From Platanthera guangdongensis (lineage: Eukaryota > Streptophyta > Magnoliopsida > Asparagales > Orchidaceae): DNA of 64,000 bases. This document shows, piece after piece, positions 1,751 to 64,000 of this stretch. Under the pieces are notes generated by a model that ran no database searches, had not been told where the DNA came from, and saw only the letters and a program-made list of their open reading frames with translations. The DNA is taken from the NCBI GenBank assembly GCA_039583875.1, contig CM077162.1, forward strand, positions 113,304,589 through 113,368,588, read 5' to 3'. A program made the position numbers and the translations under genes. Numbering within the stretch: the first letter of the stretch is position 1; every line of letters begins with the position of its first letter.

Positions 1751-4570
1751 ATGACGCCCAAGCTAGAGGAGAACATTAACGAAGGATATGAACTCGTGCG
1801 ACACGCATTTGATGACGCAGAACCCGAGATCAAAGGCGTGATAACCCTAATAGCAGAGACTGGGTTAGAATTTCTTGTATCAGAACCGATCAAGATATGG
1901 AAGAAGGAAGTCCTCGAATTTCTGAATGGAGCAACCCTAGATGAATCAGGACTCAAGATTAAGTCCAGAGTTCATGGGGCAAAGGTGAAGGTCTCTCCTA
2001 AAAGTCTAAGAAAAGTCCTTCAACTACCAAGGACAAAGGAAGAGGAAGATGTGTCTGCTTCTAAGACTAGAGAAGCATTGACATGGTGTGGTTTGGACTC
2101 AAACCTGAAGATAGGATCTGTGTTCAATAGGAAGGGAATGAATATGCAAGGCAAGTTTCTATCTGAGATTGTGGGCAAGGTCATACTGAGCAAGCCTGGT
2201 GGGCATGACAGAATTTCAGCTCACATGTTCAGTCTAATGAAAAGGATTATCTTCAAACTAGATACCGATTGGTCTACAGTTATGTTTGAGAAGATAAAAG
2301 AGAGTATGAATAAGCCCAATTTGGGTAGAATACTGAGTCTATACCTAGCTGGTAGTATACCAGAGGTGATGAATCAAGCAGCTGGATCTAAGATTAACCA
2401 CATGAGGAGAATGGATTTGAGAATCTTCTCTAGGTGGGATAGAGTACTGACCAAAGAACTGTCATCTCCAGTAAAGGAAACACCCCAGAAAAAGAAGAAG
2501 AAAACAGCCCCTGTGGCTCAGGAATCCTCTAGCAGCTCTGAAAAGCAAGTAGTATTTAGTTCTGATGATGAACAAGGAAGGAATGCTGGACAGTCTCCAG
2601 CTAGACAAGAAGATGTAGAAAGGCAGGGGGAGCTACCACAAGCTAGCCCAATTCACCTGGATTCACTCTAGGGGGAGCCTCTACTGGTGGATGAGCCAAC
2701 TCCCTTAGAGAGTGAAAGGGCTACCCACACAATACTTGAGGTAATAACTGAAATTAATAAATTAGATTTCCCTATTGAGGATGATGTTTTGTCTGATTCA
2801 TTACCTAATGTTAATCAGCAAACACAGACACATAGCCAACCCCAAGATGTGGTCATGGAGGACACATCTGTAGCTGAGAAAGAGGTATCAGCTGCTCTTG
2901 AGATCAGGGATTCACCAAGTCAACCTCCACAAGAGTTTACATTGGAAGAGCTGTTCCTAGACTCGTTACAAACTGACTTTGAAGTGAAAAAAGCAGTTGT
3001 TGAGGGGGAGCAGGTAGATCTTCAGGGGGAGCAGGTTAGGTCTCAAGAGGAGACAGTAAATAAAGAACCTGAAGTGCCAAAGGATGCTGAGCAGGTTCCT
3101 AGGACTGACAAGGATTTACCTTCTAGTCCTAAAGACAGAGTGGATATTGCAAGCACATCTGCTTCAGAGGATGAAGAGGCTGTGAGAGCCAGGAAGAGAA
3201 AATTCTAAGTCTTTAAGAGAAGGAGCCAGAATTATAAGAAAGCCCTACAAACAATTGCACCACATCCTGCACCATCTACTGATTTCAGTTCACTGATGGT
3301 AGCTTTGCAGATAAAGATGGATGAGCAAAGGCAAGCTATATAAAAGTATATAGATGAAGGGCATAAGTCACTGCAATTTGATCTGGCCCAAGACATCAAG
3401 TCAATCAGATTTGAAATGAATCTGAACAAGAAAGAAATGACTGACTGCTTCCATAAGGGAGAAAATGCAGTAGTCTATTTGGCTACACATCAAGAGAAGA
3501 TCAAGACTCAAGTGGATGACATGACTGTCAAACAAGGATATGTACTGGAGAATCAGATAAGAATGAATGATAATCTAACAGCTTCCCATAATGCCATTGT
3601 CACTGAGATAAAGAATATAGCCACTGCCCAACCTACAGAGAGTGCAACTGCCAAAGCTGAGTTTGATAAGAAATTCTAGGAAAGCCTGACGGCTTTTAAG
3701 ACTATTCTTGAAACTTCTCAGAAGGCCATTGCAGAACAACTTCAGAAGTTCAAACCGTTCTATAAGGATGGGGTTAATTATCTGAATTATCAAATAAGAT
3801 TCCAGAAAGATGATCTTAAGGATCACATTGTTAGAGAAGTCTTAAAGGGGGAGAGGGTGTTAGTCAAAGACAGCTCTGATCATGCCAAATGGATTTCAAA
3901 TTCCATTAGAGCCACCCTTGGATATCCTCCATTATGTGATGATGATAATGTGGCAGAGTCTGGAATATACCCTGCTTACTTTGGAGGAGAGCCAGCTGAA
4001 GTAGCTCAGGTAATATACCCTCCAGCAGACTTTGATATGATACATCAGGAGGTACAGTCCATGTATAGTCCTCCTGATGGTAATCTGAATGTTATTTTGG
4101 AGAAAGTAGTACAGCCAGTGCCAGAGGTAGTTCTAAAAGAACAAGAAGCACAATTATCTAAGAAAAGGTTAAGAGAGCAAGCTGAACTTAGGCCTGATTT
4201 TGTATAATGGAGCCCCACTTCCAGGAATATCATTTTGACTGCTTGGAAGGCTGCTAAAGATAATATCCTGGATAGAGGCAAGTGGTACTCTGAACAAGAG
4301 TGGAGGAAACATGAGAACAGGCAAGAGGCTATTGTTCAATATAGAAGAAAGGCTAAGATGGGAAAGCTACCTCCTACTGCATAGGAGCCTAGAAAGTACT
4401 TTCCAAAGCCTTATCATTACTTTGAAAGGCAAAAGATAAAGGCTGAAGATTTGAAAAAGAAAGATATTAAGGGAAAGAAGCATGCTGCTGCTGAAGATAC
4501 TGAAGCTCCTGTCCAAGCAAAGATACAATCAGGAAAGGACATTGTGATCAAGGAGCCTGAGCTGCCTTAG
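1751..4570 (+). pseudogene. Env-like extra ORF of the SIRE-type element, broken by in-frame stops
   Basis: One reading frame of about 940 codons runs from the ATG at 1751 to a TAG at 4568, interrupted by six stops (TAG 2669, TAA 3206, TAA 3341, TAG 3677, TAA 4205, TAG 4382) and no frameshift. An upstream TTG at 1667 is also in frame, but the ATG is preferred because it follows the TATA box. Residues about 40-235 (IWKKEVLEFLNGA, VHGAKVKVSPKSLRKVLQLP) resemble the putative plant transposon protein domain found in such extra ORFs. Then come a Lys/Ser-rich stretch, a long acidic region, a probable coiled coil around 3300-3800 and a basic C-terminus. I see no signal peptide or membrane segment, so an envelope role is not supported. 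Position between pol and 3' LTR fits the SIRE ORF3. Confidence 0.8.
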
Positions 4571-6878: not shown

Positions 6879-8290
6879 AATGGGTTGACCTGTGAAGGGC
6901 AGTAGAAGGAAGTACTGGAGTGGTAGTCCAGGAAAATACCCGTATAATGTTGGTGCTAAATGGGTTGTACATGTGAAGGGTAGTAACTTTAAGTACTGGA
7001 CTGGAAGTCCAGGAAATACCCTTATAATGCTTGATGTTAATGGGTGGTACCTGTGAAGGGTAGTAGCAGGAGGTACTGGCATGGTAAGTCAGGAAAATAC
7101 CCTTGATATTTGTGATGCTTGGTGGGTTGTGCCTGTGAAGGGTAGTAGCAGGAAGTACTGGTGTGAACGGCCGGGAAATACCCGCAAATGCTAGTTCGAT
7201 CTAGGGATGGAAAATGAGTCCTGTCTCTACCGCTGAGTGTGGAACCTAGCGAACCTGTGATTGTGAAGCCAGTCTTGCGAGGATGTGATGGCTATGTATG
7301 AGCTGGAAGAGCTCTTACGACTTGATGCCAAACATGTAAGGTGAAACAGACCCACGCCTTTTGATAGCCGCGAGTACGCTGCACTCGGTGATTCCAAGTC
7401 AATTTGAGCAACGAGGGGTGGATGATCCGACCTGCGTTATGACCGTCCGACGTAAGACCTAAAAGTGCGGTCTGTTGGAGCGCATAGCGAGAGTTTTAGG
7501 CCTGCGTGCCACGACACCATGGGGGGCTACGGGCCAATCCCGGGTCATTAAGACTTAAATCTCCGGCTGCACGCCATGGAGTAAATGCTCAATTGTTTTA
7601 CCGTTAGGTTGCGACCCTGATACGGTGGTGGGACCCTTGTTCACTGGTACACCAAGAAGGTGCCCTGAGTGCACGGATCGTCGGCCACGTAGCGGACAAT
7701 TGTGATCGAATGTTTGTGTGTGAGTGCACAATTTATGATGAATATATATGCATGTGAATTGCTATGCCTGCAGGGAAGGAATACCACTGTCCCGGGAAAG
7801 GGGTAGGATCGTTATAATTTGGTCAGCTGAATGCTGACTGTTGCCTTGTTTGCCGCCGTTGGGTGGGCTGTCCCTGTCCAGGTGCTGGGGAACCAAGCAG
7901 GACGCATAAGGGCTGAAGTCCCTGCTGTTGCTGCTACTGCTGCTGCTAGCCCTCGAAGTCTAAGCTTAAATGTTGTGTTCTATTTATATGTGGCCGGCCT
8001 GCACTCTAATGTTTGGGAGTCACTGGTGTAAAAGGACTTGTAAGGCCATAAGGCCAACTGACTTTGTATTTACTGAATGTTCCTGTTTATATATCATTGT
8101 GGATATTATGTGGTGGTCATTCATGTTTAGAGTTTTGTTTCATGTTATAGGCTTCCGCTAGAATGCAATGAGTTAGGACGAGCAACTCTGGTATCACTCT
8201 GTGACTTCGCCGCCTGTTTTGTGGTATATATTGTAGGGCCTCGGCCGGACCATCTAGTATATGTTGTATGAACGGATGGAGTCATTATAC
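6879..8290 (+). repeat. Ty3/gypsy LTR fragment (3' part), cut by the copia element
   Basis: From about 7660 this tracks the 3' part of LTR D (45100-45750) block by block: a GTGCCCTGAG word, GCAGGGAAGGA, a TCGTTATAATTTGG block, GGCCGGCCTGC, AAGGCCATAAG, TTCCGCTAGAATG, and GGCCGGACC near the end. The usual LTR end (GGGTGTTACA) is degraded to GGAGTCATTATA near 8290. The left part is missing because the copia LTR lies there. Orientation is plus, opposite to the pol fragment that follows, so it is not that fragment's own LTR. The ORF-like frames at 7831-8161 are not genes. Confidence 0.65.
6881..7200 (+). repeat. Four tandem copies of an 80-bp unit in a gypsy LTR
   Basis: Copies start at 6881, 6961, 7041 and 7123, each with TGGGTTGT, CCTGTGAAGGGTAGTAG, AGTACTGG and GGAAAATACCC in that order. 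Periods are 80, 80 and 82 bp. The array begins 2 bp after the end of the copia LTR, so further copies may have been on the other side of the copia insertion. Confidence 0.88.
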
Positions 8291-8295
8291 TCTAA

Positions 8296-9053
8296 CAGTT
8301 CCTGTAACTGCACCTTGAGCTCGACCAACTCCTTCGGTGTCATCCTATAAGGAGGACATGACATCTACATAGCTTCTAGCACTAACTCAATCGAGAAATC
8401 AATATCCCGTCGAGGAGGTACTCCAGGAAGCTCTTCAGGAAACACATCCTCGAATTCTGATACTACTGGCACTCCTCTAATTGATAGCTTGGAAGGTTGA
8501 ACTTCCAACAACGCTGTAAAAACTACTCCCTGGTTAACTGCCTGCACCAACTGTAGGGCCGAAATCAGGGAACAGGCCACTCTACTAAGGCCCTCAAATT
8601 TGACTTGTTCCTTTCATTCACCTCTCAGGGTCACCACCTTAGATAGGCAGTCAGTACTGGCATGTTGCTCTGCCAATCAGTCCATCCCCAAGATCACATC
8701 GAACTCGGTTAATGGTAGAACCTTTGCTACCAACATGAAGTCAACTCCGTCTAAACTCCAACCAATGCGCCCTTTCGTCCTGGCGGTCATGAAAGACCCA
8801 TTAGGCATGCACACTCTAAGCTCTGTGTCTGCCGAAAAGGGCTCGACTCCAATTCTATGGATAAAGCTTTCCGCAAGAAAGGAGTGTGACGCTCTCTTAT
8901 CGAACAATACCCTAGCGAGGTAACGTGAAACTAGCACGAAGCCTAAAACACATGCGACATACTTAAAAGTCTCAAAATTCTAAAGCAAATAAATGAACTT
9001 AAACTTTCTCATACCTATCACCACATCGGGTTATCGAACTGCTTCTCGTTTTC
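8296..9053 (-). pseudogene. F2 gypsy element: gag end, protease and start of RT (degenerate)
   Basis: Read on the minus strand, the gag C-terminus (NPDVVIGM, near 9013) is followed by a retropepsin domain (8937-8677) ending VILGMD, then the protease-RT linker VSEFEDVFPEELPGVPP (about 8480-8430) and the RT entry [17 protein letters not shown] at 8296. The protease active site reads LFDKRASHSF where the family has LFDTGASHSF, so it is inactive. Three stops lie in the frame (after VILGMD, in the following spacer, and before the RT entry). The sequence stops abruptly at 8296 against a plus-oriented LTR. It is continuous with the gag piece at 20400-20510 if the LTR 9054-20399 is removed. Confidence 0.82.
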
Positions 9054-44160: not shown

Positions 44161-44445
44161 GCCTAGGTTTTGGATTTTAAGTGCGAATCGTGGCCATCTG
44201 TTTCCTTCCTTTGGGATCTAAGGGTCCTGGCTTATCCTGGCAGTGTTTAACCCAGGAATAGGGTTTAGAAACCCTCATTCTATTTGGGTTTTCACTTTCT
44301 AAGAGTTCTAAAGAGAGGGGAGAGTAAGGAAGAAGAAGGAGGAGACATCCGGCCGCCGGTGGAGCTTCGGAGCCCCAAATCGCAAGCCGAGTTCGGATCC
44401 ACGGAGGCGAGGATGTTGTCGTGCTTTTCATCTGCATAGATCTTC

Positions 44446-44469
44446 ATGGCGCTAAAGAGGAATGCTAGG
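44446..44469 (+). CDS. Candidate gag leader exon in LTR D (8 codons)
   Basis: ATGGCGCTAAAGAGG and three more codons (MALKRNAR) run straight into a GTAATG donor at 44470. Compared with LTR E the two third-position changes are synonymous (AAT/AAC, GCT/GCA). The matching acceptor is AG at 45971-45972, where gag opens in phase 0, giving a 1503-bp intron that spans the LTR end and the primer site. Confidence 0.65.
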
Positions 44470-50084: not shown

Positions 50085-50108
50085 CCTTGCGTTCCTCTTT
50101 GGCGCCAT
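50085..50108 (-). CDS. Candidate gag leader exon in LTR E
   Basis: ATGGCGCCAAAGAGG and three codons (MAPKRNAR) ending at a GTAACG donor. As part of the 3' LTR it would not itself be spliced to gag, but it is the template for the next 5' LTR. Confidence 0.6.
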
Positions 50109-50397: not shown

Positions 50398-51050
50398 CAC
50401 GGCCTGGCACACGCCCGTGTCCAGGGTCGTGTGCCTCATTAGCCGTCAAAATCGAATCACCTGGAACCTCACACGGGTATCGAACACGCCCGTGTTCGAG
50501 CTGACACGCCCGTGTTCCACCTGACAAGGCCGTGTGGCCGGCCGTGTACCCCATGATTTTTCCCCAAAATCAACCCGAGCACTGCACGGGTTCTAGGACA
50601 CGCCCGTGTCCCTACCTGTGTTACCTCAACACGCCTGGACCCCAGGCCGTGTACACGGTCTCGATACTCGACACTTCGTCGAGTGAAGATCGTCGACCTG
50701 ATGATACGGCCTTGGACACGCCCGTGTCCTAGGCCGTGTGCCTTGTGTCGCCGATCGTCGAGAAAATCTCGTCGACTCCCCGGGACGATCGTCGAGACAG
50801 GTCGACACGCCCGCGACACGCCCGTGTCGCAGGCCGTGTGCCTTGTCTCGACGCATCATCGAGCGAATCTCGTCGACTTCGCAGCTAAGTGTCGACACAG
50901 GTCGACACGCCCTGCGACACGCCCGTGTCGCAGGCCGTGTGCCCAGTCTCGACACAATGTCGAGACCAAAGTGTCGACTTCCCGGCTCAGTGTCGACACA
51001 GGCTCGACACGCCCTGGGACACGCCCGTGTCCCAGGCCGTGTGCCTGCAG
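50398..51050. repeat. U3 palindrome cluster, LTR E
   Basis: All three word types occur together: GACACGCCCGTGTC (at least six copies), GACGATCGTC with CGTCGAG half sites, and GTGTCGACAC (50889-50898, 50990-50999). CAGGCCGTGTGCC follows many of the copies at a fixed distance. Confidence 0.92.
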
Positions 51051-51449: not shown

Positions 51450-51536
51450 TGTAACACCCCCATCTGTCGCATGGCATATAACAGAAGGTCCAGCTGGAAC
51501 CCGACGCCATATACCACAGACAGCCAGAAGAGATAC

Positions 51537-53082
51537 TGTTAAAGCCAAAATCTGACTCCGACAAATGTTCACGAAATAGGGGCGTAGCCGACTCCTACTT
51601 GGCCCAAGCTCCGACCTCCGACTGGTCGTGAAGGACTAGAAAAATGGCCCAAAGCCGCAGCAGGGAGGTCCCACCGCTTACCCGGAAGGTCACAGAGAGC
51701 TTCCCCTCCAAAGCCAAAAGCTGGGCTTGGAGTTCTTCAGAAGACTGTGCCAAATGAATCCTCTTAAGAGTCCGAAAAGTCTCCCTCCTGAAGAACCCCC
51801 TATGGGCTTATTTATAGATTTCAGAATCTGAACTGCCAATAACAAGACTGCACAGGTCTGAAATTACCGGGGTACCCTTGGCTGGGTCTGCCAACAGCCA
51901 AACTCTGCTGTTCTGAGAAGCTATATGCAGTCCACTAAGGGTAAGAGGGTAAAAGTACCCGGAGTAGAAGAGTAAAAACCTCTGTTTGACAGGGAAATAT
52001 AACATATAATATAAAGAAAGGCCTCTTCTCGCCCTGGCGAGTGGAAAGGTGCCTACCGGCGAGAGTGGCCCCACTGCCCGTCTCGCCGGCGCCTCTCGCC
52101 CCTTACTGCGAGATCTCCTTGCTGCTGGAGATTCTCTCGCCCGTGGAGGCCCTCTCACCTCCGGAGGCCCTCTCGCCCCTGGATGGGGTATCTCGCCCCT
52201 TGGAGAGTCCATCATCTCGCTGATTGCGAGTGGGCCCCCCTGGTCCCATTTGCCTATCTCGATCTGTTTGCTTCTTGAGGGCTCTTTGCGAGCCCGAGGT
52301 TGTACAGTTCCACGCTCACCGCACCAGAACTGTTGAAGCCAAAATCTGACTCCGACAAATGTTCACGAAATAGGGGCGTAGCCGACTCCTACTTGGCCCA
52401 AGCTCCGACCTCCGACTAGTCGTGAAGGACTAGAAAAATGGCCCAAAGCCGCAACAGGGAGGTCCCACCGCTTACCCGGAAGGTCACAGAGAACTTCCCC
52501 TCCAAAGCCAAAAGCTGGGCTTGGAGTTCTTCAGAAGACTGTGCCAAATGAATCCTCTTAAGAGTCCGAAAAGTCCCCCTCCTGAAGAACCCCCTATGGG
52601 CTTATTTATAGATTTCAGAATCTGAACTGCCAATAACAAGACTGTACTGGTCTGAAATTACCGGGGTACCCTTGGCTGGGTCTGCCAACAGCCAAACTCC
52701 GTTGTTCTGAGGAGCTATATGCAGTCCACTAAGGGTAAGAGGGTAAAAGTACCCGGAGTAGAAGAGTAAAAACCTCTGTTTGACAGGGAAATATAACATA
52801 TAATATAAAGAAAGGCCTCTTCTCGCCCTGGCGAGTGGAAAGGTGCCTACCGGCAAGAGGGGCCCCACTGCCCGTCTCGCCGGCGCCTCTCGCCCCTTAC
52901 TGCGAGATCTCCTTGCTGCTGGAGATTCTCTCGCCCGTGGAGGCCCTCTCGCCCCTGGATGGGGTATCTCGCCCCTTGGAGAGTCCATCATCTCGATGAT
53001 TGCGAGTGGGCCCCCCTGGTCCCATTTGCCTATCTCGATCTGTTTGCTTCTTGAGGGCTCTTTGCGAGCCCAAGGTTGTACA
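51537..53082 (-). mobile_element. LTR-PBS-LTR mini-element
   Basis: Direct LTRs 51537-52306 (770 bp) and 52331-53082 (752 bp; the difference is one 18-bp duplication plus scattered substitutions) are separated by only 24 bp (52307-52330). On the minus strand the LTRs run TGTACAACC to AACA. The interior holds the 18-nt word TCCACGCTCACCGCACCA (plus strand), which as I recall it is the 3' end of plant tRNA-Phe including CCA, so the minus strand carries a tRNA-Phe primer site 4 bases after the LTR. There is no polypurine tract and no coding sequence. The 5-bp target duplication GATAC (51532-51536, 53083-53087) is perfect. The LTR frames at 51808-52215 and 52602-53111 are not genes. Confidence 0.92.
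52040..52240. repeat. CTCGCC/GGCGAG palindromic words in mini-element LTR
   Basis: CTCGCCCTGGCGAG and many TCTCGCCCC words, repeated at 52816-53010 in the second LTR. The same GGCGAG/CTCGCC theme marks the Tat LTR at 34130-34210. Confidence 0.75.
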
Positions 53083-54262
53083 GATACTAAATGAATAATC
53101 AAACCAACCAACTAATACTACTCGTCCTAAACACAGAGCATTCTAGCGGAAGATTTTAAAGTTGAAAGAACCCAAAATTAAATCCATCAATATGAATGTC
53201 CACAGCTACAACAATAGTAATGAAATCTCAAATACACAGAAACGGGTACATGGCCTTATGGCCTTACAAAAGTTCACTTAATAAAGAGTGTTTTACATAC
53301 ATCGGCTCGCAGGCCGGCCACACATGAAATATGAAAAAACAACTATTCTACGGCCTTCTAGGGCCAGCACAGCAACATGGGCTCCAGCCCGCTATTTGGC
53401 GCTCGGCTCTGCAGCACCTGCAAGCACATAGCACCGCACGGTGGCAAATAAAGCAACGGTCAGCTAAAAGCCGACCAAATTATAACGACTCCGCCCCTTA
53501 CTCGGGACGGCGGTGCTCTTTCCCTGCAAAACATTAGCCCAACAATATATATATCGCAATTATAATTCGCCACAGGTGTAGGCTCGCACGGCCAAACACC
53601 CCGTGCAGTCAGGGCACATTCATGGTGAACCCTGACAAATCAGTGCATTCACCACCATCCCCAGGATGACAACAACATGTGAGCATTTAGCCTTTCTGAC
53701 CACCGTCTAAGGCTCTGACTATGCCAACGGCCAATCCCCGTCTTCGGGTCTCTCGCACCGAACCACATAGCCTAGGTCCAATTCCACTTGCCCGTTGCTC
53801 ATGCCGCATGTCCAATTTAAGTCCTTTGTGCGGGCCAAGCTTCTCTCGGATCCCAAATTTTCCAAAACAATCTCATAACCCAGTTATGAACAAGGCCGGT
53901 TCCCAGACCGCCAAGTTAGCAGAACACGTTTCCGCTCAGTTTTTCGGGTGCGCCTTGAAGCTAATCTCCAAGGATCCCTGCTGCAATCTACCCTGTAGAA
54001 ACCCGAAAAAAATCCAAAGCACGGAGTCTTCTCCGGCAAAACCACATCAAATGCAACATCACCGATCCAGACAAAACACGTCCGGGTAGGCTTCACACAC
54101 AATGCCTATGCCCGTACTTGCGATTCCGAGCTCTATATGCAACACGTGGGGGACTATTTTCATCAACCCCAAGGAACACCACGCACTCGCCGCACACTCG
54201 CGGGAGCGGGATTCCCTATGCAGAAAGAAAGAGCTTCAAACGCTCAAGTTGAGAATCGTTAC

Positions 54263-54286
54263 CCTTGTAGTCCGTTTTGGCGCCAT
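54263..54286 (-). CDS. Candidate gag leader exon in G 3' LTR
   Basis: Identical to the exon in the 5' LTR (63438-63461): MAPKRTTR then a GTAACG donor. Confidence 0.6.
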
Positions 54287-54564
54287 GGAAAAACTACGCG
54301 GTTAGAACTCTTCGCAATGACTTTCCCTCCACGGATCCGCTCTCCGATTTCGAAACGGTGCTCCGATGCTCCGTCGGCGGCCGGAAACCTCCTTCTTCTT
54401 CCTCTTCTCTCTCACTTTGGAAGGGGAGAACTTTGGAGAGAAAATGAGGAAATAACCCCCTATTCCCGGCCTTAACAGAGCAGAATTTCATCTGGGCCGT
54501 CGGATCTAAATTAAAGGAAACGAATGGCTCGGATCTGCACAAAATTCCCTAGACCTGGGCCGCA

Positions 54565-54900
54565 CACGGCTTGGCACACGGCCGTGTCCAAGGCCGTGTG
54601 CCTCGATCCAGGCACGATCGTCGAACTGAGAAACGCACACGGGCCAAGACACGCCCGTGTCTGACCTGACACGCCCGTGTCGGGTTCCTCGCCACGCCCG
54701 TGTTCATGGGCGTGTCACGCATAACCGCCACGGCAACGGACATGACCCATCAGGACACGGGTATGGACATGGGTTGGCACACGCCCGTGTCGGATAACAC
54801 GCCCGTGTCATCCGGCCGTGTTTCTGGCCGTGTCCTTCTCGGGTTGAAAACAGCCAAAAAATCACCAGCCAGACACGTCCTTATACACGCCCGTGTCCTA
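54565..54900. repeat. U3 palindrome cluster, G 3' LTR
   Basis: Several GACACGCCCGTGTC, CACACGGGC and ACGATCGTCG words within the first 400 bp of the LTR on the minus strand. Confidence 0.88.
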
Positions 54901-55028
54901 GGCCGTGTACCCCTACCTGTACCAAAAACTCTTTTTTTCGCGACCGACTCGCACACAACTTTCGGGGCGTTACAAATCTCCCCCACTTAAGGAATTTCGT
55001 CCCGAAATTAAGCAAAGGTACACGAAAG

Positions 55029-58000
55029 CTAAATGATACCTGAGTGGAATAACTCGGGGTATTCCTCCAACATAGCTTGCTCTCGCTCCCAAGAAAGCTC
55101 CTCACGTCCGCAATTACCCCAACGGACTTTAACCATTCGGACCTCCTTGTTGCGGAGTCGTTTGACTGCAACATCTTCAATTCGCACTGGCTTGACCCTT
55201 GTTGTTAACTCATAATCAACCGGTGCCTGATTGTCAGTAACGATCTGCGAAGACTCTTGCACTGCCTTACGCAACACCGATACGTGGAATACGTCATGCA
55301 GCCCACTCAACTCCGTCGACAGCTTTAATCTATACACCGCCTCGCCAACACGCTCCAGGATTTCAAATGGTCCAAGGTATCTTGGACTCAGCTTCTTCAA
55401 GCGTCGAACCCGCGATACACCCTTGAACGGCTTGATCTTTAAATATACCATGTCGTCAACGTTGAACTCCACATTTCTATGTTTGGCATTGTAATACTTT
55501 GACTGTATATCCTGAGAAATCTTCAGCCTTTCCTAAAATTGTCCGTATCATTGAAGTGGCATCTTCCACCGCTTGACGTTTATACAACTTTGATTCGTCT
55601 GCCTCCAACTAAGACAACGGCGTACGACACTTCCTCCCGTACAAGGCTTCGAAAGGCGCCATTCCAATGCTTGCCTGAAAGCTATTGTTGTAAGCAAACT
55701 CCACCATGTACAGGTGATCCTCCCAATTCTTCCTGAAATCTAGGACGCACATGCGAAGCATGTCCTCCATAGTCCTGTTGACTCTCTCGGTTTGGCCATC
55801 TGTCTGCGGGTGAAAGGCTGTGCTGAACTTTAGCTTAGTACCCAACAGACTATGCACCAACCTCCAGTCATTCGACGTGAATCGTCCATCTCGATCACTA
55901 AAAATACTTCTAGGCACACCATGCAATCGTACAATACTATCCACGTTGAGTTTGGCTAACTTTTCCATTGGATCTTCCTTTCTGACTGGGATAAAGTGCG
56001 ACACTTTGGTCAATCTATCAACGACCACCCAAATGGCGTCGTTTCCCTTCTGCAACTTCGGCAAACCGTGCACAAAATCCATAGATATGTCGCCAAACTT
56101 CCATTCTGGGATAGGAAGGGATTTCAAGAATCCTCCGGGCTTCTGACACTCCGCTTTCACCAAGGCACAAGTACGGCACTTGGCCACATAAAGTGCCACA
56201 TCCTTCTTCAAACCCGGCCACCAGAATAATTTATTCATGTCTCTATACATCTTCGTGCTTCCCTGGTGGATTGAGTACTTGGTATGATGAGCCTCATACA
56301 TCAACTCCTCCCGAATATTATCCGCACTAGGAACGCATAGACGACTGTCCTTCCTTAGCAACCCATCTTCAACCACAAACTGGGAATTTGATCCATCCAA
56401 AGTTCCATCTAAGATTTGCTTCATGCTGCTATCCTGAACCAAAGCCCGCCGAACTCTATCCGCTAGGTCACACTGCACCTCTGTCCAAAACAGTTTCGCC
56501 TCGGCACTTGACTGCTTGTCAACGCAAGATATCTCCAATGCCTCCAACTCTTGGACCAATCTCTTATCATGCACTGATAACCAATTGGCTTGTGCGGGAA
56601 TTTTACGACTCAATGCATCCGCCACTGCATTTCCCTTCCCAGGCACATAGTGTATCTTGAAGGTGTAGTCCCCTAAGAACTCCATCCACCTCCTCTGCCT
56701 CATGTTCAAATCTTTTTGGTCCAAAAGGTACTTCAAACTTTTATGATCGGTGTAAATATCCACCTTCACACCGTACAGATAGTGCCTCCAAAGCTTTAGA
56801 GCAAATATCACAGCCGCTAACTCTAAGTTGTATACCGGATAATTCCTCTCGTGAACCTTCAGTTGTCATGAACCATAAGTTATCACTCTCCCATGCTGTA
56901 GCAGAACACAGCCCAAACCACTGCCCGAAGCATCACTATAAATCTCGAACCCTTTGGTTCCACTTGGAGAACATAAAATAGGCGCCGTGGTTAACCACCT
57001 CTTCAACTCTACAAAAGCCTGTTCGCACTCCGGAGACCACACAAACTTCTGATCCTTTCTTGTCAACGTCGTGAGTGGTAGTGCTATCCGCGAGAAGTTC
57101 TCTACGAAGCGCCTGTAGTAGCCAGCAAGCCCTAGAAAACTCCGGACCTCTGCCACTGTAGTCAAAGTAGGCCACTCCCGTATCGCCACTATCTTCGCCG
57201 GATCCACAGCTATTCCTTCTCCACTGACAACATGACCAAGGAACGCTATTGAGGATAACCAGAATTCACACTTGGAGAACTTTGCATACAACTGACTTTT
57301 CCTCAATGTTTCCAACACCATGTGTAAATGCTTGTAGTGATCCTCCTCGCACCGCGAATACACCAGGATATCATCGATAAATACTATCACAAACTGATCC
57401 AAGTATTCTCTGAACGTCCTATTCATCAGATCCATAAACACGGATGGCGCATTCGTCAACCTAAACGGCATGACTGTGAACTCGTAATGCCCAAACCGCG
57501 TACTGAATGCTGTCTTTGGAATGTCGCTCTCCATTATTCTCAACTGATAGTAACCGGACTTCAAATCTAACTTCGAATATACAGTTGACCCAATCAACTG
57601 ATCAAATAGATCGTCAATCCTCGGGATTGGATATTTGTTCTTCTCCGTAAGTTTGTTCAATTCCCGATAATCGATACAAAGCCGCAAGCTCCCATCTTTC
57701 TTCTTAACAAAGAGAACTGGTGCACTCCAAGGCGACGAACTTGGACGCACATAACTTTGCTCTAGCAACTCTTGCAGTTGCACCTTCAACTCTGCCATTT
57801 CTCTTGGGGCTATCCGATAGGGGGAGCGTGACACCGGTTTGGCACCCGGTACCAGCTCTATAGTAAAGTCTATCTCCCGCTGAGGAGGGGCTCCTGGGAG
57901 ATCATCTGGAAACACATCAGGATACTCGGACACAACTGGGATGTTGCCCAAACTAGGTTTAGGCGTCGCAGTCTGCACTAGAGTGACATACAGTTCTGCC

Positions 58001-58121
58001 CCAGACCGAACTGCCTTGAACACCTGAAGGGCCGATATCAGAACTTTCCCTGACCCCTTCATGCCCGCAAAAGTAGTCTCTCCACCAGTGTCCAGACCCA
58101 ACTTGACTTCTTTACGGTTGC
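55029..58121 (-). pseudogene. Element G pol: RT, RNase H, integrase, chromodomain
   Basis: The minus-strand frame continues from the protease across the solo LTR and reads [69 protein letters not shown] (catalytic Asp pair), [24 protein letters not shown] at 56866 (Arg CGA expected) is followed by RNase [12 protein letters not shown] and [13 protein letters not shown], integrase [10 protein letters not shown]...CRTC zinc site, [12 protein letters not shown] and [18 protein letters not shown] at 55609 (Trp expected) and a frameshift near 55535 precede the C-terminal domain MVYLKIKPFKGVSR and the chromodomain ending at 55029. Otherwise intact, so loss of function is recent. Confidence 0.92.
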
Positions 58122-59412
58122 TGTAACACCCCCCCTATCCGTCGCATAGCATATAGCAGTAGGTCCGGCCGGGGCCCGACGCCATATACCACAGACAGAC
58201 CGGGTGGTTACTTATGGAAACCATCCAACCAATCTCAACGTCCTACACAGAGCATTCTAGCGGAAGCAATTTATATAAGTTGCAAAACAAGAACCCAGCA
58301 ATAAGCATGAATGTCCACTAACATGATAATAGGAATGTTATTACAAAATACTCAAAAGTCGGCCTTAAGGCCTTACCAAATGTTTCACTTGTCTTTTACA
58401 TGATTTACAAACCTCGGCACGCAGGCCGGCCATACATGAATAAAACATAAAACATTCCCACTTGGGCCTTCGAGGGCCAGCTTCGCGAAAAGGGCTTTAG
58501 CCCGCTATTGACCGCTTGGTCCAGCTGCACCTGCAAGCAAACAAACCACCGCACGGTGGCAAACAAGGCAACGGTCAGCAATGCTGACCAAATTATAACG
58601 ATCCCGCCCCCAACTCGGGGCGGCGATGCTCCTTCCCTGCATTTCATTAGCATAAGCGAGCAATAGATCACCATAGCCATTACATCACAGGCATTGGCTC
58701 GCACGGCCACACGCCCCGTGCACTCAGGGCACATTCTCGGTGAACCGGTCGATGTCACGACAATTAAAGCCATTAACATTCCGGATTCACCACCGCCACT
58801 TTGACGGCCATTCCTATGAGCAATTCGTCTTCATGGTATTGGTCACGTCAATTTAAGCCATTGACCACCGAAGACTCACATCTATGCCAACGGCGAGTGC
58901 CATGTAACTTTAGGTCTCTCTAACCCGAACGACATAAAGCGAGTACGGCTCCATCTAACCCGTGCTCACATCGCAACGGCAATTTAAGCCATTTGCGCGG
59001 GTCAAACTTTCACCGATTCCCATTCTACCGCAAGACACATAACCCCGTTATGTTCATGTTGGCACTCAGGCCACCAAGTTGGCAAGACCTCGTGTCCGCC
59101 CAGTTTTCCGGGTGCACCTTTGGGTTAGTCCCCAAGGCTCCCTGCTGCAATCTACCGCGTAGAAAACCCGAAAACACCAAATAGCACGGAGTCTTCTCCG
59201 GCCTTATGCAATGCAACATCACCGATCCGGACTAACATGTCCGGGTAGGCTTCAACCAAAAATGCCTATGTCCGTTCTCGCATACGGACGCTAAACAACG
59301 AGGACTTTACATATCTACCCGAAGGAACGCCTCCAACTCTTCGCAAACTCGCGAGAGAGGGCTTCCTATGCTAAGAAAGAGAGCTATCATGCTCACAAGT
59401 GAGGATCGTTAC

Positions 59413-59436
59413 CCTTGCGTTCCTCTTTGGCGCCAT
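59413..59436 (-). CDS. Candidate gag leader exon in solo LTR H
   Basis: Same eight codons as in LTR E (MAPKRNAR) and the same GTAACG donor. With only a solo LTR left there is no gag to join. Confidence 0.55.
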
Positions 59437-59724
59437 CGAAATGTAATCGGATAGAAATCACCGCACTTGCGTTGCCTCCGTGGATCCGGAGTCGGCTTGC
59501 GATTCGGAGCTCCGAAGCTCCTCCAATGGCGGATCTAGCTCCTCTTCCTCTTGCCTTAGCTCTTCTTTCTCCAAGGGTTTGGAGAGAGGATAAGTGATGA
59601 AAAGTGTGGATTTTTCTAAGTCAAACCCGAGTATATACTCTCAGGAACCATCCCCAGCCGTCGGATCTCAACCTAAGAAAACGAGCGGCTTTGATTCGGG
59701 GCTGAAATGCCCAATCTGGGCCGA

Positions 59725-60360
59725 ACACGGCCTGGCACACGCCCGTGTCCAGGGCCGTGTGCCGCATTCGCCGTCAAAATCGAATCTTCTGAACACGCAC
59801 ACGGGTATCGAACACGCCCGTGTTCGAGCTGACACGCCCGTGTTCCAGCTGACACGGCCGTGTAGCCGGCCGTGTACCCCATGATTTTCCCCCGTTTCCA
59901 ACCCGAGAACTGCACGGGTTCTAGGACACGCCCGTGTCCTTGCCCGTGTCACATTGACACACCTGGGCCCCCAGGCCGTGTACACGGGGCATTTCGTCGA
60001 GGGGAGAACGACGACTGGATGACACGGCCTTGGACACGCCCGTGTCCTAGGCCGTGTGCCTTGCCTCGACGATCGTCGAGTGAATCTCGACGATTTCACC
60101 TTGACGATCGTCGACACGGGTCGACACGCCCTGCGACACGCCCGTGTCGCAGGCCGTGTGCCCATTCTCGACGAATCGTCGAGAATAACTCGACGATTTC
60201 ACGGCTAAGTGTCGACACGGGTCGACACGCCCTGCGACACGCCCGTGTCGCAGGCCGTGTGCCCTTTCTCGACGAATCGTCGAGTATAACTCGACGACTT
60301 CGCGACTAAGTGTCGGCACACACTTGACACGCCCTGGGACACGCCCGTGTCCCAGGCCGT
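59725..60360. repeat. U3 palindrome cluster, LTR H
   Basis: Includes the 16-bp perfect palindrome CTCGACGATCGTCGAG (60065-60080), GTGTCGACAC (60209-60218) and at least six GACACGCCCGTGTC copies. Confidence 0.92.
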
Positions 60361-60436
60361 GTGCCGTCAGCCAGAAACCAAAACTGGCCCAAAACGTCCC
60401 CCTTTGCTCCTTTGAGTTTCGGGGCATTACAGTTGC

Positions 60437-60743
60437 AATCAATGCATGCACTCTGCTCCGAGAGCCAATCCATACCGAAAATTACGTCAAACTCCACTAA
60501 TGGTAGAATCAACGCCCGCAAATCAAACTCCCGATCTCCAATTCGAATCTTCACAACACAAATCCTATCCGCACGCATTGAGCACCCATTAGGCAACAAC
60601 ACATCCAACTTGTTTTCTGCCATCGAGAACGAAACTCCGATGCGCGATATAAACTTTTCAGACAAGAAGGAGTGTGATGCCCCCGTATCAAAAAGGGCTC
60701 TCGCCGGAAACCCAAAGATCAACACAAAGCCTAGCACTAACAA
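60437..60743 (-). pseudogene. Element G protease (N-terminal part of pol)
   Basis: The minus strand reads GFPARALFDTGASHSFLSEK with an intact DTG active site, then MAENKLDVLLPNGCSM and LILPLVEFDVIFGMDWLSEQ. The frame is cut at 60436 by solo LTR H and resumes at 58121 in the same frame. It lies in a different frame from gag, which ends at 60797, so pol expression would need a frameshift or reinitiation. Confidence 0.9.
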
Positions 60744-60796
60744 ACGTAAGCTAACAAATACAAAGGTAACAACTATAAAAGTTAAACCACTATAAT

Positions 60797-61951
60797 TTAA
60801 CTCATACCTGTCACCACGTCTGCTTGCTTAATGGCCTCCTGCAGACCAAGGTTATAGACTATAGGCTGGGCTAGAGCATGATGGGATACGGTTGACTCCA
60901 CCGCCTTCCCTTTATCCTCATAAGTCGCTCCAGGTCTCCTCTCGGACTTTGAACGTCCGCTCCAACACTCCCGAGCAAAATGCCCCGTCTTCCCGCAGTT
61001 GTAGCAAGCCCCGGGGACTCGACTTGTAGTTGCCCCCGATGCATCAGCCGAAGGGGCTGATTTCGAAGTCCTCCGCTTCTTGTTCCATCTGCGGAAACCT
61101 GTCTTGTTACCTGGCACCTTGAACTCGGTCTTCCTTTCTCCTGGGTCCCTCTTCTCTAGAACTTTCTTCGCAACCTTTTCCAACGATCGGGCCGAATTGA
61201 CCAAGGCTAGGAAGCCCTGCGCCTTAGGCCCAGCAAGGAGTAACTGTAAATCGGCGCGAAGACCCTCATAGAATCGGTTGGTCTTCCTCTCTTCTTCTGA
61301 AAACATAGCACCAGCATAACGACCCAACCGTGTGAACTTATGCAGATATTCGTCCACGCTTCTGGATCCCTGAGTCAACCCAAGAAATTGATTCTCCATA
61401 TCCAATCTCTGAGCAGAAGATACAAATCTGGCTAGGAACAATCTTGAAAATTCCTCCATCGGCACATCCGCAAGTTGCCTTCCCACTAGAAGATGAAAGT
61501 CCAACTCGTCCCACCACAGCCTCGCCTCACCTTCCAAAAGAAAAGTCGCTATGGTGGTCTTCTGCCACTCCTCAGTCAGTGTGGTCGTCAACACCCTCTT
61601 TATGGAAGAGAGCCAGTCCTCAGCTTGAGTTGGCGTTCCAACCCCATTAAACCTCGGAGGATTAAAGCCCATCACGTGCTTTAGCTGCCGCTCCGTAGTT
61701 CTCCTCGGCTCTACAAACTCAACTGCTGCGCGTTCCACCACTCTCGGCTCTGCCGCCCTAACCGGTTCTTGCTCATTCACAGGAGGTGCGCGATGCATTT
61801 GCCCTGCAGGTTGGGCATTTATCATTGCAAACACGGCTTCAGCCACCATCCTGATGGTTTCCGCTGAAGGAGGTGTAGTAGGCACGTCCCTTGGTGCGCT
61901 ACTTTCCGCTGATTGCGGACGCTCTGACTGACCAGCACCGCTCCTAGCTTC
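60797..61951 (-). CDS. Element G gag, exon 2 (open)
   Basis: Open from 61951, directly after a CTAATTTAG acceptor-like site with an in-frame TAG, to a TAA at 60797: 384 codons. Starts EARSGAGQSERP, which aligns with VTRSGAGLSERP of D. The GTG at 61885 is an ordinary Val codon, and the first ATG is only at 61849. Capsid core: FNPPRFNGVGTPTQAEDWLS, LLEGEARLWWDELDF, SVDEYLHKFTRLGRYAG, KTNRFYEGLRADLQLLL. Basic region, then one CCHC knuckle CYNCGKTGHFAREC near codon 325. Gag forms the particle and binds RNA. The lack of a local ATG suggests translation starts in the LTR leader exon at 63461. Confidence 0.9.
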   Translation of the reverse strand, partial: EARSGAGQSERPQSAESSAPRDVPTTPPSAETIRMVAEAVFAMINAQPAGQMHRAPPVNEQEPVRAAEPRVVERAAVEFVEPRRTTERQLKHVMGFNPPRFNGVGTPTQAEDWLSSIKRVLTTTLTEEWQKTTIATFLLEGEARLWWDELDFHLLVGRQLADVPMEEFSRLFLARFVSSAQRLDMENQFLGLTQGSRSVDEYLHKFTRLGRYAGAMFSEEERKTNRFYEGLRADLQLLLAGPKAQGFLALVNSARSLEKVAKKVLEKRDPGERKTEFKVPGNKTGFRRWNKKRRTSKSAPSADASGATTSRVPGACYNCGKTGHFARECWSGRSKSERRPGATYEDKGKAVESTVSHHALAQPIVYNLGLQEAIKQADVVTGMS

Positions 61952-62159
61952 CTAAATTAGCAAAGACACACGATTAGACAACAAACAAATTGCTAAAGGC
62001 AATCATTGGAATACTCAGGTTCCACAAAACAAGTGTATTTACATTCCTAAGTGGACATTCATGGGTTCTTTTTAATGTTATAACGATGACGCACACATGT
62101 GCTCACCACCCCTTAAAAGAATTCGCCCACAAATTCATTTAAGCTTGACCGTAATCAGA

Positions 62160-62171
62160 TGTCTGATACCA
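62160..62171 (-). other. Primer binding site of element G
   Basis: TGGTATCAGACA on the minus strand, 3 bases after the 5' LTR end. One or two changes from the initiator tRNA-Met site TGGTATCAGAGC. Confidence 0.9.
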
Positions 62172-63437
62172 AATTGTAACACCCCCATCTGTCGCATCAC
62201 ATATAACAGAAGGTCCAGCTGGAACCCGACGCCATATACCACAGACAGCCGGAAGAGATACTAAATGAATAATCAAACCAACCCACTAATACTACTCGTC
62301 GTAAACACAGAGCATTCTAGCGGAAGATTTTAAAGTTGAAAGAACCCAAAATTAAATCCATCAATATGAATGTCCACATCTACAACAATAGGAATGAAAT
62401 CCCAAATACACAGAAACGGGTACATGGCCTTATGGCCTTACAAAAGTTCACTTAATAAAGAGTGTTTTACATACATCGGCTCGCAGGCCGGCCACACATG
62501 AAATATATAAAAACAACTATTCTATGGCCTTCTAGGGCCAGCACAGCAACATGGGCTCCAGCCCGCTATTTGGCGCTCGGCTCCGCAGCACCTGCAAGCA
62601 CATACCACCGCACGGTGGCAAATAAAGCAATGGTCAGCTAAAAGCCGACCAAATTATAACGACTCCGCCCCTTACTCGGGACGGCGGTGCTCTTTCCCTG
62701 CAAAACATTAGCCCAACAATATATATATCGCAATTATAATTCGCCACAGGTGTAGGCTCGCATGCCCAAACACCCCGTGCACTCAGGGCACATTTATGGT
62801 GAACCCTGACAAATCAGTGCATTCACCACCATCCCCAGGATGGCAACAACATGTGAGCATTTAGCCTTTCTGACCACCGTCTAAGGCTCCGACTATGCCA
62901 ACGGCCAGTCCCCGTCTTCGGGTCTCTCGCACCGAACCACATAGCCTAGGTCCAATTCCACTTGCCCGTTACTCACGCCGCATGTCCAATTTAAGTCCTT
63001 TGCGCGGGCCAAGCTTCTCTCGGATCCCAAATTTTCCAAAACAATCTCATAACCCAGTTATGAATAAGGCCGGTTCCCAGACCGCCAAGTTAGCAGAACA
63101 CGTTTCCGCTCAGTTTTTCGGGTGCGCCTTGAAGCTAATCTCCAAGGATCCCTGCTGCAATCTACCGCGTAGAAACCCGAAAAAAAATCCAAAGCACGGA
63201 GTCTTCTCCGGCAAAACCACATCAAATGCAACATCACCGATCCAGACAAAACACGTCCGGGTAGGCTTCACACACAATGCCTATGCCCGTACTTGTGATT
63301 CCGGGCTCTATATGCAACACGTGGGGGACTATTCACATCAACCCCAAGGAACACCACGCACTTGCCGCACACTCGCGGGAGCGGGATTCCCTATGCAGAA
63401 AGAAAGAGCTTCAAACGCTCAAGTTGAGAATCGTTAC

Positions 63438-63461
63438 CCTTGTAGTCCGTTTTGGCGCCAT
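63438..63461 (-). CDS. Candidate gag exon 1 of element G (8 codons)
   Basis: ATG at 63461, eight codons (MAPKRTTR), then donor GTAACG at 63437. The ATGGCG context is favourable for plant initiation. The acceptor is AG at 61953-61952 and gag continues in phase 0 at 61951, so the intron is 1486 bp and includes the LTR end and primer site. The encoded basic start MAPKRxxR resembles the usual basic N-terminus of plant chromovirus Gag. Confidence 0.65.
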
Positions 63462-63744
63462 GGAAAAACTACGCGGTTAGAACTCTTCGCAATGACCTTC
63501 CCTCCACGGATCCGCTCTCCGATTTCGAAACGGTGCTCCGATGCTCCGCCGGCGGCCGGAAACCTCCTTCTTCTTCCTCTTCTCTCTCACTTTGGAAGGG
63601 GAGAACTTTGGAGAGAAAATGAGGAAATAACCCCCTATTCCCGACCTTAACAGAGCAAAATTACATCTGGGCCGTCAGATCTAAATTAAAGGAAACGAAT
63701 GGCTCGGATCTGCACAAAATTCCCCAAACCTGGGCTGCACAAGG

Positions 63745-64000
63745 CTTGGCACATGGCCGTGTCCAAGGCCGTGTGCCTCGATCCAGGCACGATCGTCGAA
63801 CTGAGAAACGCACACGGGCCAAGACACTCCCGTGTCTGACCTGACACGCCCGTGTCGGGTTCCTCGCCACGCCCGTGTTCGTGGGTGTGTCACGCATAAC
63901 CGCCACAGCAATGGACACAACCCATCAGGACACGGGTATGGACACGGGTTGGCACACGCCCGTGTCGGATGACACGCCCGTGTCATCCGGCCGTGTTTCT
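63745..64000. repeat. U3 palindrome cluster, G 5' LTR (cut by window end)
   Basis: GACACGCCCGTGTC and ACGATCGTCG words as in the 3' LTR, with a few more mutated copies (GACACTCCCGTGTC). Confidence 0.88.

Follow-up and report, generated by a model that had tools for sequence, protein, structure and literature searches.

How can a retrotransposon translate Gag from a gag gene that opens without a start codon? The question is raised by element G, a long terminal repeat (LTR) retrotransposon on the reverse strand of a 64,000-nucleotide stretch of the orchid Platanthera guangdongensis (assembly GCA_039583875.1, contig CM077162.1; the whole stretch is hereafter called the window). The gag frame of G is open from 61951, directly after an in-frame TAG (61954-61952), and its earliest in-frame ATG, at 61849, is codon 35, preceded by 34 codons without an ATG. 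An earlier note on this DNA had proposed that the start codon is encoded in the LTR and joined to gag by splicing, and that the removed intron carries the primer-binding site (PBS), by which messenger would be separated from genome. The present analysis suggests that G is a Ty3/gypsy element with two introns, in which splicing would separate a Gag mRNA, a Gag-Pol mRNA and the genome; we put the probability of this reading at roughly 0.84. The division of one retroelement RNA between translation and copying has been called a major question (PMC3735527; this and the other articles cited here are drawn on in excerpt), and, if the reading is true, the sequence of G itself would make the two exclusive uses of one RNA.

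A putative start exon in the LTR

The 5′ LTR of G contains an eight-codon exon that begins with ATG, encodes MAPKRTTR and ends at GTAACG; 1486 nucleotides (nt) separate it from gag, and both sides are in phase 0. The GT of the predicted splice donor (63437) lies in the LTR, with the PBS (62171) downstream of it and within the putative intron 1. All coordinates of the ATG-less gag opening, the exon, the phase and the PBS were re-read and hold as the earlier note had given them. No ATG occurs from 63640 to exon 1, the nearest one upstream being at 63666. Every LTR of the window that covers this part, five in all, has exon 1 followed by a GTAA donor; the peptide is MAPKRTTR in the two LTRs of G, MALKRNAR in a related element, D, and MAPKRNAR in two others. 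Another LTR fragment (7769-8056) ends short of this part. The intron-1 acceptor is good, ranking 4 of 237 by a plant matrix that was applied to the splice sites of both introns.

These features were surveyed across the 4.25-Gb host genome. Among the best 40 G copies listed, all of which were retrieved and which include the window copy, the ATG, the open exon and the AG are each kept in 40 and the GT in 39, so that 39 of the 40 keep every feature, and no stop codon interrupts exon 1 in any of them. Of the best 40 D copies listed, likewise all retrieved, 30 have exon 1, 37 have the AG and 24 have every feature. Family E is related to P0001, the closest named gag relative (62% identity), which comes from the orchid Platanthera zijinensis; 118 scored P0001 matches in the host genome are 77-83% identical, 26 of them are free of gag stops, and 20 of these 26 were retrieved. 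Exon 1 was found in 17 of the 20, while 15 carry the AG where expected and 10 show every feature. Such loss in D and E is expected because both families look older and decayed in sequence, and it still counts as loss. A comparison of G with 16 selected D and E copies gave an identity of 0.94 for intron-1 bases 1-12, vs 0.72 for exon 1, 0.62 for the 60 bases before exon 1 and 0.75 for intron-1 bases 13-72. The pattern of exon 1 plus donor occurs at 8831 genome places at up to three mismatches and its reversed control at none, which sets it above chance. Compared across copies and families in this way, the sequences give good support to a start codon spliced from the LTR.

Coding constraint on the gag leader

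The gag leader, whose 34 ATG-less residues the earlier note took to be translated, was compared between G and 14 of the 20 E copies, the remaining six being left out because their leader is not open from the TAG. Over leader codons 1-41, the differences at codon positions 1, 2 and 3 number 78, 128 and 328, counts that are not independent since the copies share ancestry; the mean nonsynonymous divergence (dN) is 0.20 and the synonymous divergence (dS) about 1.7 (dS being computable for 10 of the 14 pairs). The corresponding counts in the next 19 gag codons are 54, 48 and 117, with a dN of 0.26 and a dS of 0.82. The accumulation of leader differences at codon position 3 supports the claim of translation and indicates that, in these sequences, codons 1-41 evolve as protein. 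As read, 18 of the 20 E copies have a leader without any ATG, and codon 35, the first ATG of G, is Leu or Phe in all 20.

The same comparison bears on the possibility that Gag is made from unspliced RNA, either from an ATG within the frame (the one at 61849 or the Met that follows it, in MINAQ) or through internal entry, in which case the open reading frame (ORF) in the LTR would be a mere short upstream ORF. P0001 is indeed predicted to begin at MINAQ, and shunting or leaky scanning is possible on plant pararetroviral RNAs (PMC5902531). However, the MINAQ start is a prediction and not a mapped site, the constrained codons 1-41 lie upstream of its Met, the codon-35 ATG is replaced in every E copy read, and 32 ATGs are present in intron 1. 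An internal start is thus unlikely.

A second intron between gag and protease

As to the proposed splicing, the earlier note stood in its LTR-to-gag part but missed a second intron, 77 nt long, which is the firmest sign that RNA of the element is spliced. The gag ORF of G stops after 384 codons, at VVTGMS followed by the stop, and protease resumes in a different frame; in the P0002 genome search, 98 of the 121 scored matches have a stop-free open frame of exactly 384 codons and are presumably G-type. A programmed frameshift at the end of gag was dropped as an explanation once a 77-nt stretch with exact splice borders emerged, namely GACAG/GTATGAGTTAA...GTTAGTGCTAG/GCTTTG (49% T; borders marked by slashes). 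By the plant matrix, its donor is top-ranked among the 243 GTs of the region and its acceptor ranks 15 of 237. With the stretch removed, exon 2 ends in DVVTG and exon 3 continues with FVLIFGFPARALFDTG. A protein database search returned 3 relatives of gag and 17 of the protease piece, and a collection of virus contigs searched for relatives returned none. In the joined product, 11 residues separate the VVTG-like motif from LFD, just as many as in the uninterrupted P0005 (VITG), P0006 (VAEG, LMD) and P0016 (VVIG), three of the seven protease relatives that were read out of the 17. Family E shares intron 2, with its borders kept and its inside diverged (GTACGGTTTAA...TATAG in five copies). In both G and E families, translation would end after two codons when intron 2 is retained; this intron likely sets Gag against Gag-Pol.

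Genomic record of splicing

The junction that would result from removal of intron 2 is found at 83 genome places (5 exact; 25, 33 and 20 at one, two and three mismatches, respectively, the weakest of which may include other changes), compared with none for the reversed control; the intron-2-containing form is found at 3173. The 83 include two of the best 40 G copies, L032 and L048, both of which keep the PBS and intron 1. In 10 further junction matches examined, exactly 77 nt are gone in all 10, and the PBS and the intron-1 acceptor are kept upstream in nine, whereas that region is rearranged in the other one. A tree was built from a short alignment of 51 rows, namely 40 G copies, nine of the 10 intron-less copies examined and two E rows, and is weakly resolved. 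The 11 intron-2-less rows are scattered on it and require nine changes of state; well-supported branches make at least two of these unavoidable, and in 200 bootstrap trees the rows never group as one clade. The exact loss of 77 nt and the scatter on the tree indicate that RNAs spliced at intron 2 were reverse transcribed, most likely on more than one occasion.

These copies might instead reflect an ancestral intron-free state or a single deletion, an explanation favored by the variant TTTGAGT, which many of the 83 matches share and which points to one lineage multiplied. It is about as improbable as an internal Gag start, since intron 2 is common to the diverged G and E families, the intron-less copies are dispersed within G, albeit on a weakly resolved tree, and in all 10 copies examined the missing stretch ends precisely at the splice borders.

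Intron-1-less copies were also sought as direct proof of splicing from the LTR and were not found, as the model itself predicts because the PBS sits inside intron 1: the intron-1 junction gave 0 matches in the genome, vs 4170 for acceptor plus gag. If introns 1 and 2 were lost equally freely, tens of intron-1-less copies would be expected. The 83 places for the intron-2 junction and 0 for the PBS-containing intron 1 fit the separation of messenger and genome put forward in the earlier note.

Predicted working of the element

In the predicted scheme, transcription would begin in the LTR upstream of exon 1, maybe at the pyrimidine-rich stretch near 63640-63600, and since no ATG intervenes, the exon-1 ATG would then be the first AUG in G. 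Removal of intron 1 would fuse MAPKRTTR to Gag in frame. An RNA without intron 1 that keeps intron 2 would be read to the stop two codons past exon 2, yielding Gag, and one without both introns would yield Gag-Pol, by which intron 2 may control the ratio of Gag to Gag-Pol. An RNA that keeps intron 1 would contain the PBS, be the sole form open to reverse transcription and serve as genome, with no usable gag start behind its 32 ATGs and the in-frame TAG. The weak intron-1 donor (see below), kept across families, could restrain splicing so that genomes remain. Since the PBS lies in the very intron whose removal the Gag start requires, translation and reverse transcription would exclude each other on one RNA. 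We lean, by a modest degree, toward the full version of this scheme, in which a two-intron code sorts one transcript into genome, Gag messenger and Gag-Pol messenger and makes translation and reverse transcription mutually exclusive for each molecule. Thousands of genome copies would then record the outcome, the intron-2-spliced RNAs having returned and the intron-1-spliced ones having left no trace.

Several observations weigh against this scheme. The intron-1 donor, AGG/GTAACG, is weak, ranking 21 of the 243 GTs by the plant matrix. The window copy of D has an ATG that opens an eight-codon ORF (44413-44439) just ahead of exon 1, and the exon-1 ATG is thus not the first in every copy; moreover, exon 1 could not be recognized in 10 of the 40 D copies or in 3 of the 20 E copies. 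Taken alone, exon 1 gives no clear codon-position signal, the extra alleles numbering 4, 6 and 6 at positions 1, 2 and 3 among the 12 haplotypes seen at least twice in 89 exons, and several of these haplotypes alter amino acids. This codon test is not decisive because eight codons are too short; for the same eight codons, the pairwise mean dN of 0.13 and dS of 1.67 (64 of 66 pairs usable) are rough, and codons 4-5 encode two basic residues through AAA CGG, AAG AGG, AAG AGA or AGG AAG in most, not all, haplotypes. As for the genomic record, only two intron-2 state changes are forced by well-supported branches, and the intron-2 label is not significantly clustered or spread on the tree (118 of 500 shuffles as low). 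The complete lack of intron-1-less copies is also expected if intron 1 is never spliced, which makes it a consistency check rather than proof, and its contrast with intron 2 is weak if the 83 matches descend from as few as two events.

Two further explanations concern the LTR donor and the Gag start. In foamy viruses, the major donor sits in the LTR ahead of the poly(A) signal, where U1 binding suppresses 5′ polyadenylation (PMC3694450), and the donor bases of G and its relatives are better kept than their surroundings. A donor that mainly restrains polyadenylation in the 5′ LTR, its coding match being secondary, would leave the kept ATG, frame and phase and the missing gag start unexplained; we consider this very unlikely as the main function, and it could be an added role of a spliced start exon. 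The least probable alternative, an unspliced Gag start at a non-AUG codon directly after the TAG, draws on the GTG found there in most D and E copies, but G copies open with GAA, GCA or GCT, then mostly GCT, none of which is known as a usual near-cognate start, a long ATG-rich leader would still be in the way, and the in-phase ATG exon of the LTRs would be left unexplained.

Comparison with known systems

The spliced start exon proposed for G is worth comparing with other retroelements and related viruses. In BARE1, a Ty1/copia element of barley, RNA for translation is kept apart from RNA for copying by means of two start sites, capping and polyadenylation; a small gag-region intron is spliced, about half of the capped RNAs make only Gag, and amplification from barley DNA yielded no DNA copies of the spliced RNA (PMC3735527). 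BARE1 and G would be alike in having separate RNA pools and a gag-region intron, whereas the Gag stop is created by the splice in BARE1 and would be supplied by retention of intron 2 in G. Ogre, of the Ty3/gypsy Tat group, has an intron in its polyprotein region that is spliced out of only a subset of RNAs; this is its likeness to G, but the Ogre intron lies between gag-protease and reverse transcriptase (RT), and the excerpts mention no start exon in its LTR (PMC6317226).

Foamy viruses (Spumaretrovirinae) make Pol from spliced RNA (PMC7828637). Their spliced messages would lack the PBS because the donor precedes the poly(A) signal within the LTR, and an LTR donor situated ahead of the PBS is what G, as read from its sequence, would share with them. 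Foamy Gag is translated from unspliced RNA, whereas Gag of G would itself need splicing, given the 34 codons after the TAG without an in-frame ATG. Rice tungro bacilliform virus fuses an upstream ORF of its leader to the distant ORF IV by splicing (PMC5902531), a leader-ORF fusion like that predicted for G, although its product is P4 and not the coat protein. The insect retroviruses ZAM and Beagle use splicing to join the main env exon to a short exon that precedes gag and encodes a peptide (PMC12992720). The short upstream exon is the likeness to G, and in ZAM and Beagle it serves env. Their gag is read from unspliced RNA.

No report of a gag start codon located in an LTR and joined by splicing was found in the open-access articles searched, which is not proof of its absence from print. 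In the excerpts of the sources, Gag depending on an LTR start exon is not described for BARE1, Ogre, foamy viruses, rice tungro bacilliform virus or ZAM and Beagle, and a 2005 statement on introns upstream of gag and a 2025 review agree. For annotation, it matters that an internal Met is readily taken as the gag start in elements of this kind, P0001 being an example, and that the thousands of LTRs that bear the start exon and donor might splice into neighboring genes.

Layout of element G in the window

The features of G and the related exon-1 copies are collected in Table 1. The LTR termini are TG...CA (TGTAACG...GTTACA), and the PBS (62171-62162), which we take to match the 3′ end of plant initiator tRNA-Met, and the polypurine tract (PPT; 54988-54977) adjoin the LTRs as in Ty3/gypsy elements. 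Pfam matches to gag, protease, RT, RNase H and integrase follow the Ty3/gypsy order, and a weak match to Chromo at the integrase C-terminus scores 16.9 bits, under its cut-off of 25.1. The Tekay (Del) label is presumed from resemblance in LTR, PPT and protein motifs, and G belongs to a large, chromovirus-like Ty3/gypsy family, probably of the Tekay clade. The usual Tekay form has one uninterrupted gag-pol ORF; G departs from it in that its gag ORF ends after 384 codons and its protease lies in another frame. The window copy is a dead element, because its protease gene is broken by a solo LTR and a stop lies inside its pol.

Table 1 Features of element G and related exon-1 copies in the window
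Feature	Position	Strand	Remarks
Part of G 5′ LTR	62175..64000	-	LTR start beyond 64000, outside window
Predicted exon 1	63438..63461	-	Eight-codon start exon MAPKRTTR inside 5′ LTR; sequence ATGGCGCCAAAACGGACTACAAGG; phase 0 end at GTAACG
Predicted intron 1	61952..63437	-	1486 nt; remaining LTR, PBS and 32 ATGs; 3′ end TTTAG
PBS-like TGGTATCAGA	62162..62171	-	Within intron 1
Predicted exon 2, gag	60808..61951	-	381 codons plus 1 base; Retrotrans_gag and zinc knuckle
Predicted intron 2	60731..60807	-	77 nt, 49% T; ACAG/GTATGAGTTAA...GTGCTAG/GC; in-frame stop when retained
Predicted exon 3 start, aspartic protease	60432..60730	-	FVLIFGFPARALFDTGASHSF...; interrupted by solo LTR
Solo LTR within G protease gene	58122-60431
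G RT, RNase H, integrase	55609..58134	-	Two ORFs with stop between in window copy
Integrase C-terminus	55032..55532	-	Weak chromodomain match
PPT ahead of G 3′ LTR	54977..54988	-
G 3′ LTR, main part	53082..54974	-	Begins TGTAACGCCCCG at 54974; carries exon-1 copy 54286-54263
Exon 1 of element D	44446..44469	+	MALKRNAR, donor GTAATG; D acceptor TATAG/GTG, gag resumes 45973
Exon 1 in related solo LTR	59413..59436	-	MAPKRNAR, donor GTAACG
Exon 1 in related 3′ LTR	50085..50108	-	MAPKRNAR, donor GTAACG

The 3′ LTR of G is split by an insert, the LTR end lying beyond it at 51450-51537. The insert (51535-53083) contains two repeats of ~770 bp that are 95.9% identical and 21 bp apart. Two F-type LTRs in the window hold short tandem, partly palindromic repeats, at 50684-51046 and 60013-60365.

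Related elements in the genome

Part of the 8831 matches to exon 1 plus donor belongs to a second, apparently non-autonomous family with the same exon. In the 100 places listed, the LTR-to-LTR interval is 6.61-6.65 kb (13 cases) about as often as 6.85-6.87 kb (12 cases). The second element class (L139-L144), whose two exon-1 copies lie ~6.64 kb apart and which was examined at three loci (C1 near 81.94, 91.92 and 98.13 Mb), combines a G-type exon 1 with a D-like internal region, and its protease looks degenerate by eye, with the active-site motif lost. It may be a young and abundant family that is non-autonomous and relies on G. Elsewhere, matches regularly spaced by one LTR plus internal region (~6.6-6.9 kb), as on C3 near 26.07-26.09 Mb and on C1 near 81.71 and 87.29 Mb, suggest tandem arrays; the run on C3 matches the intron-2-less junction.

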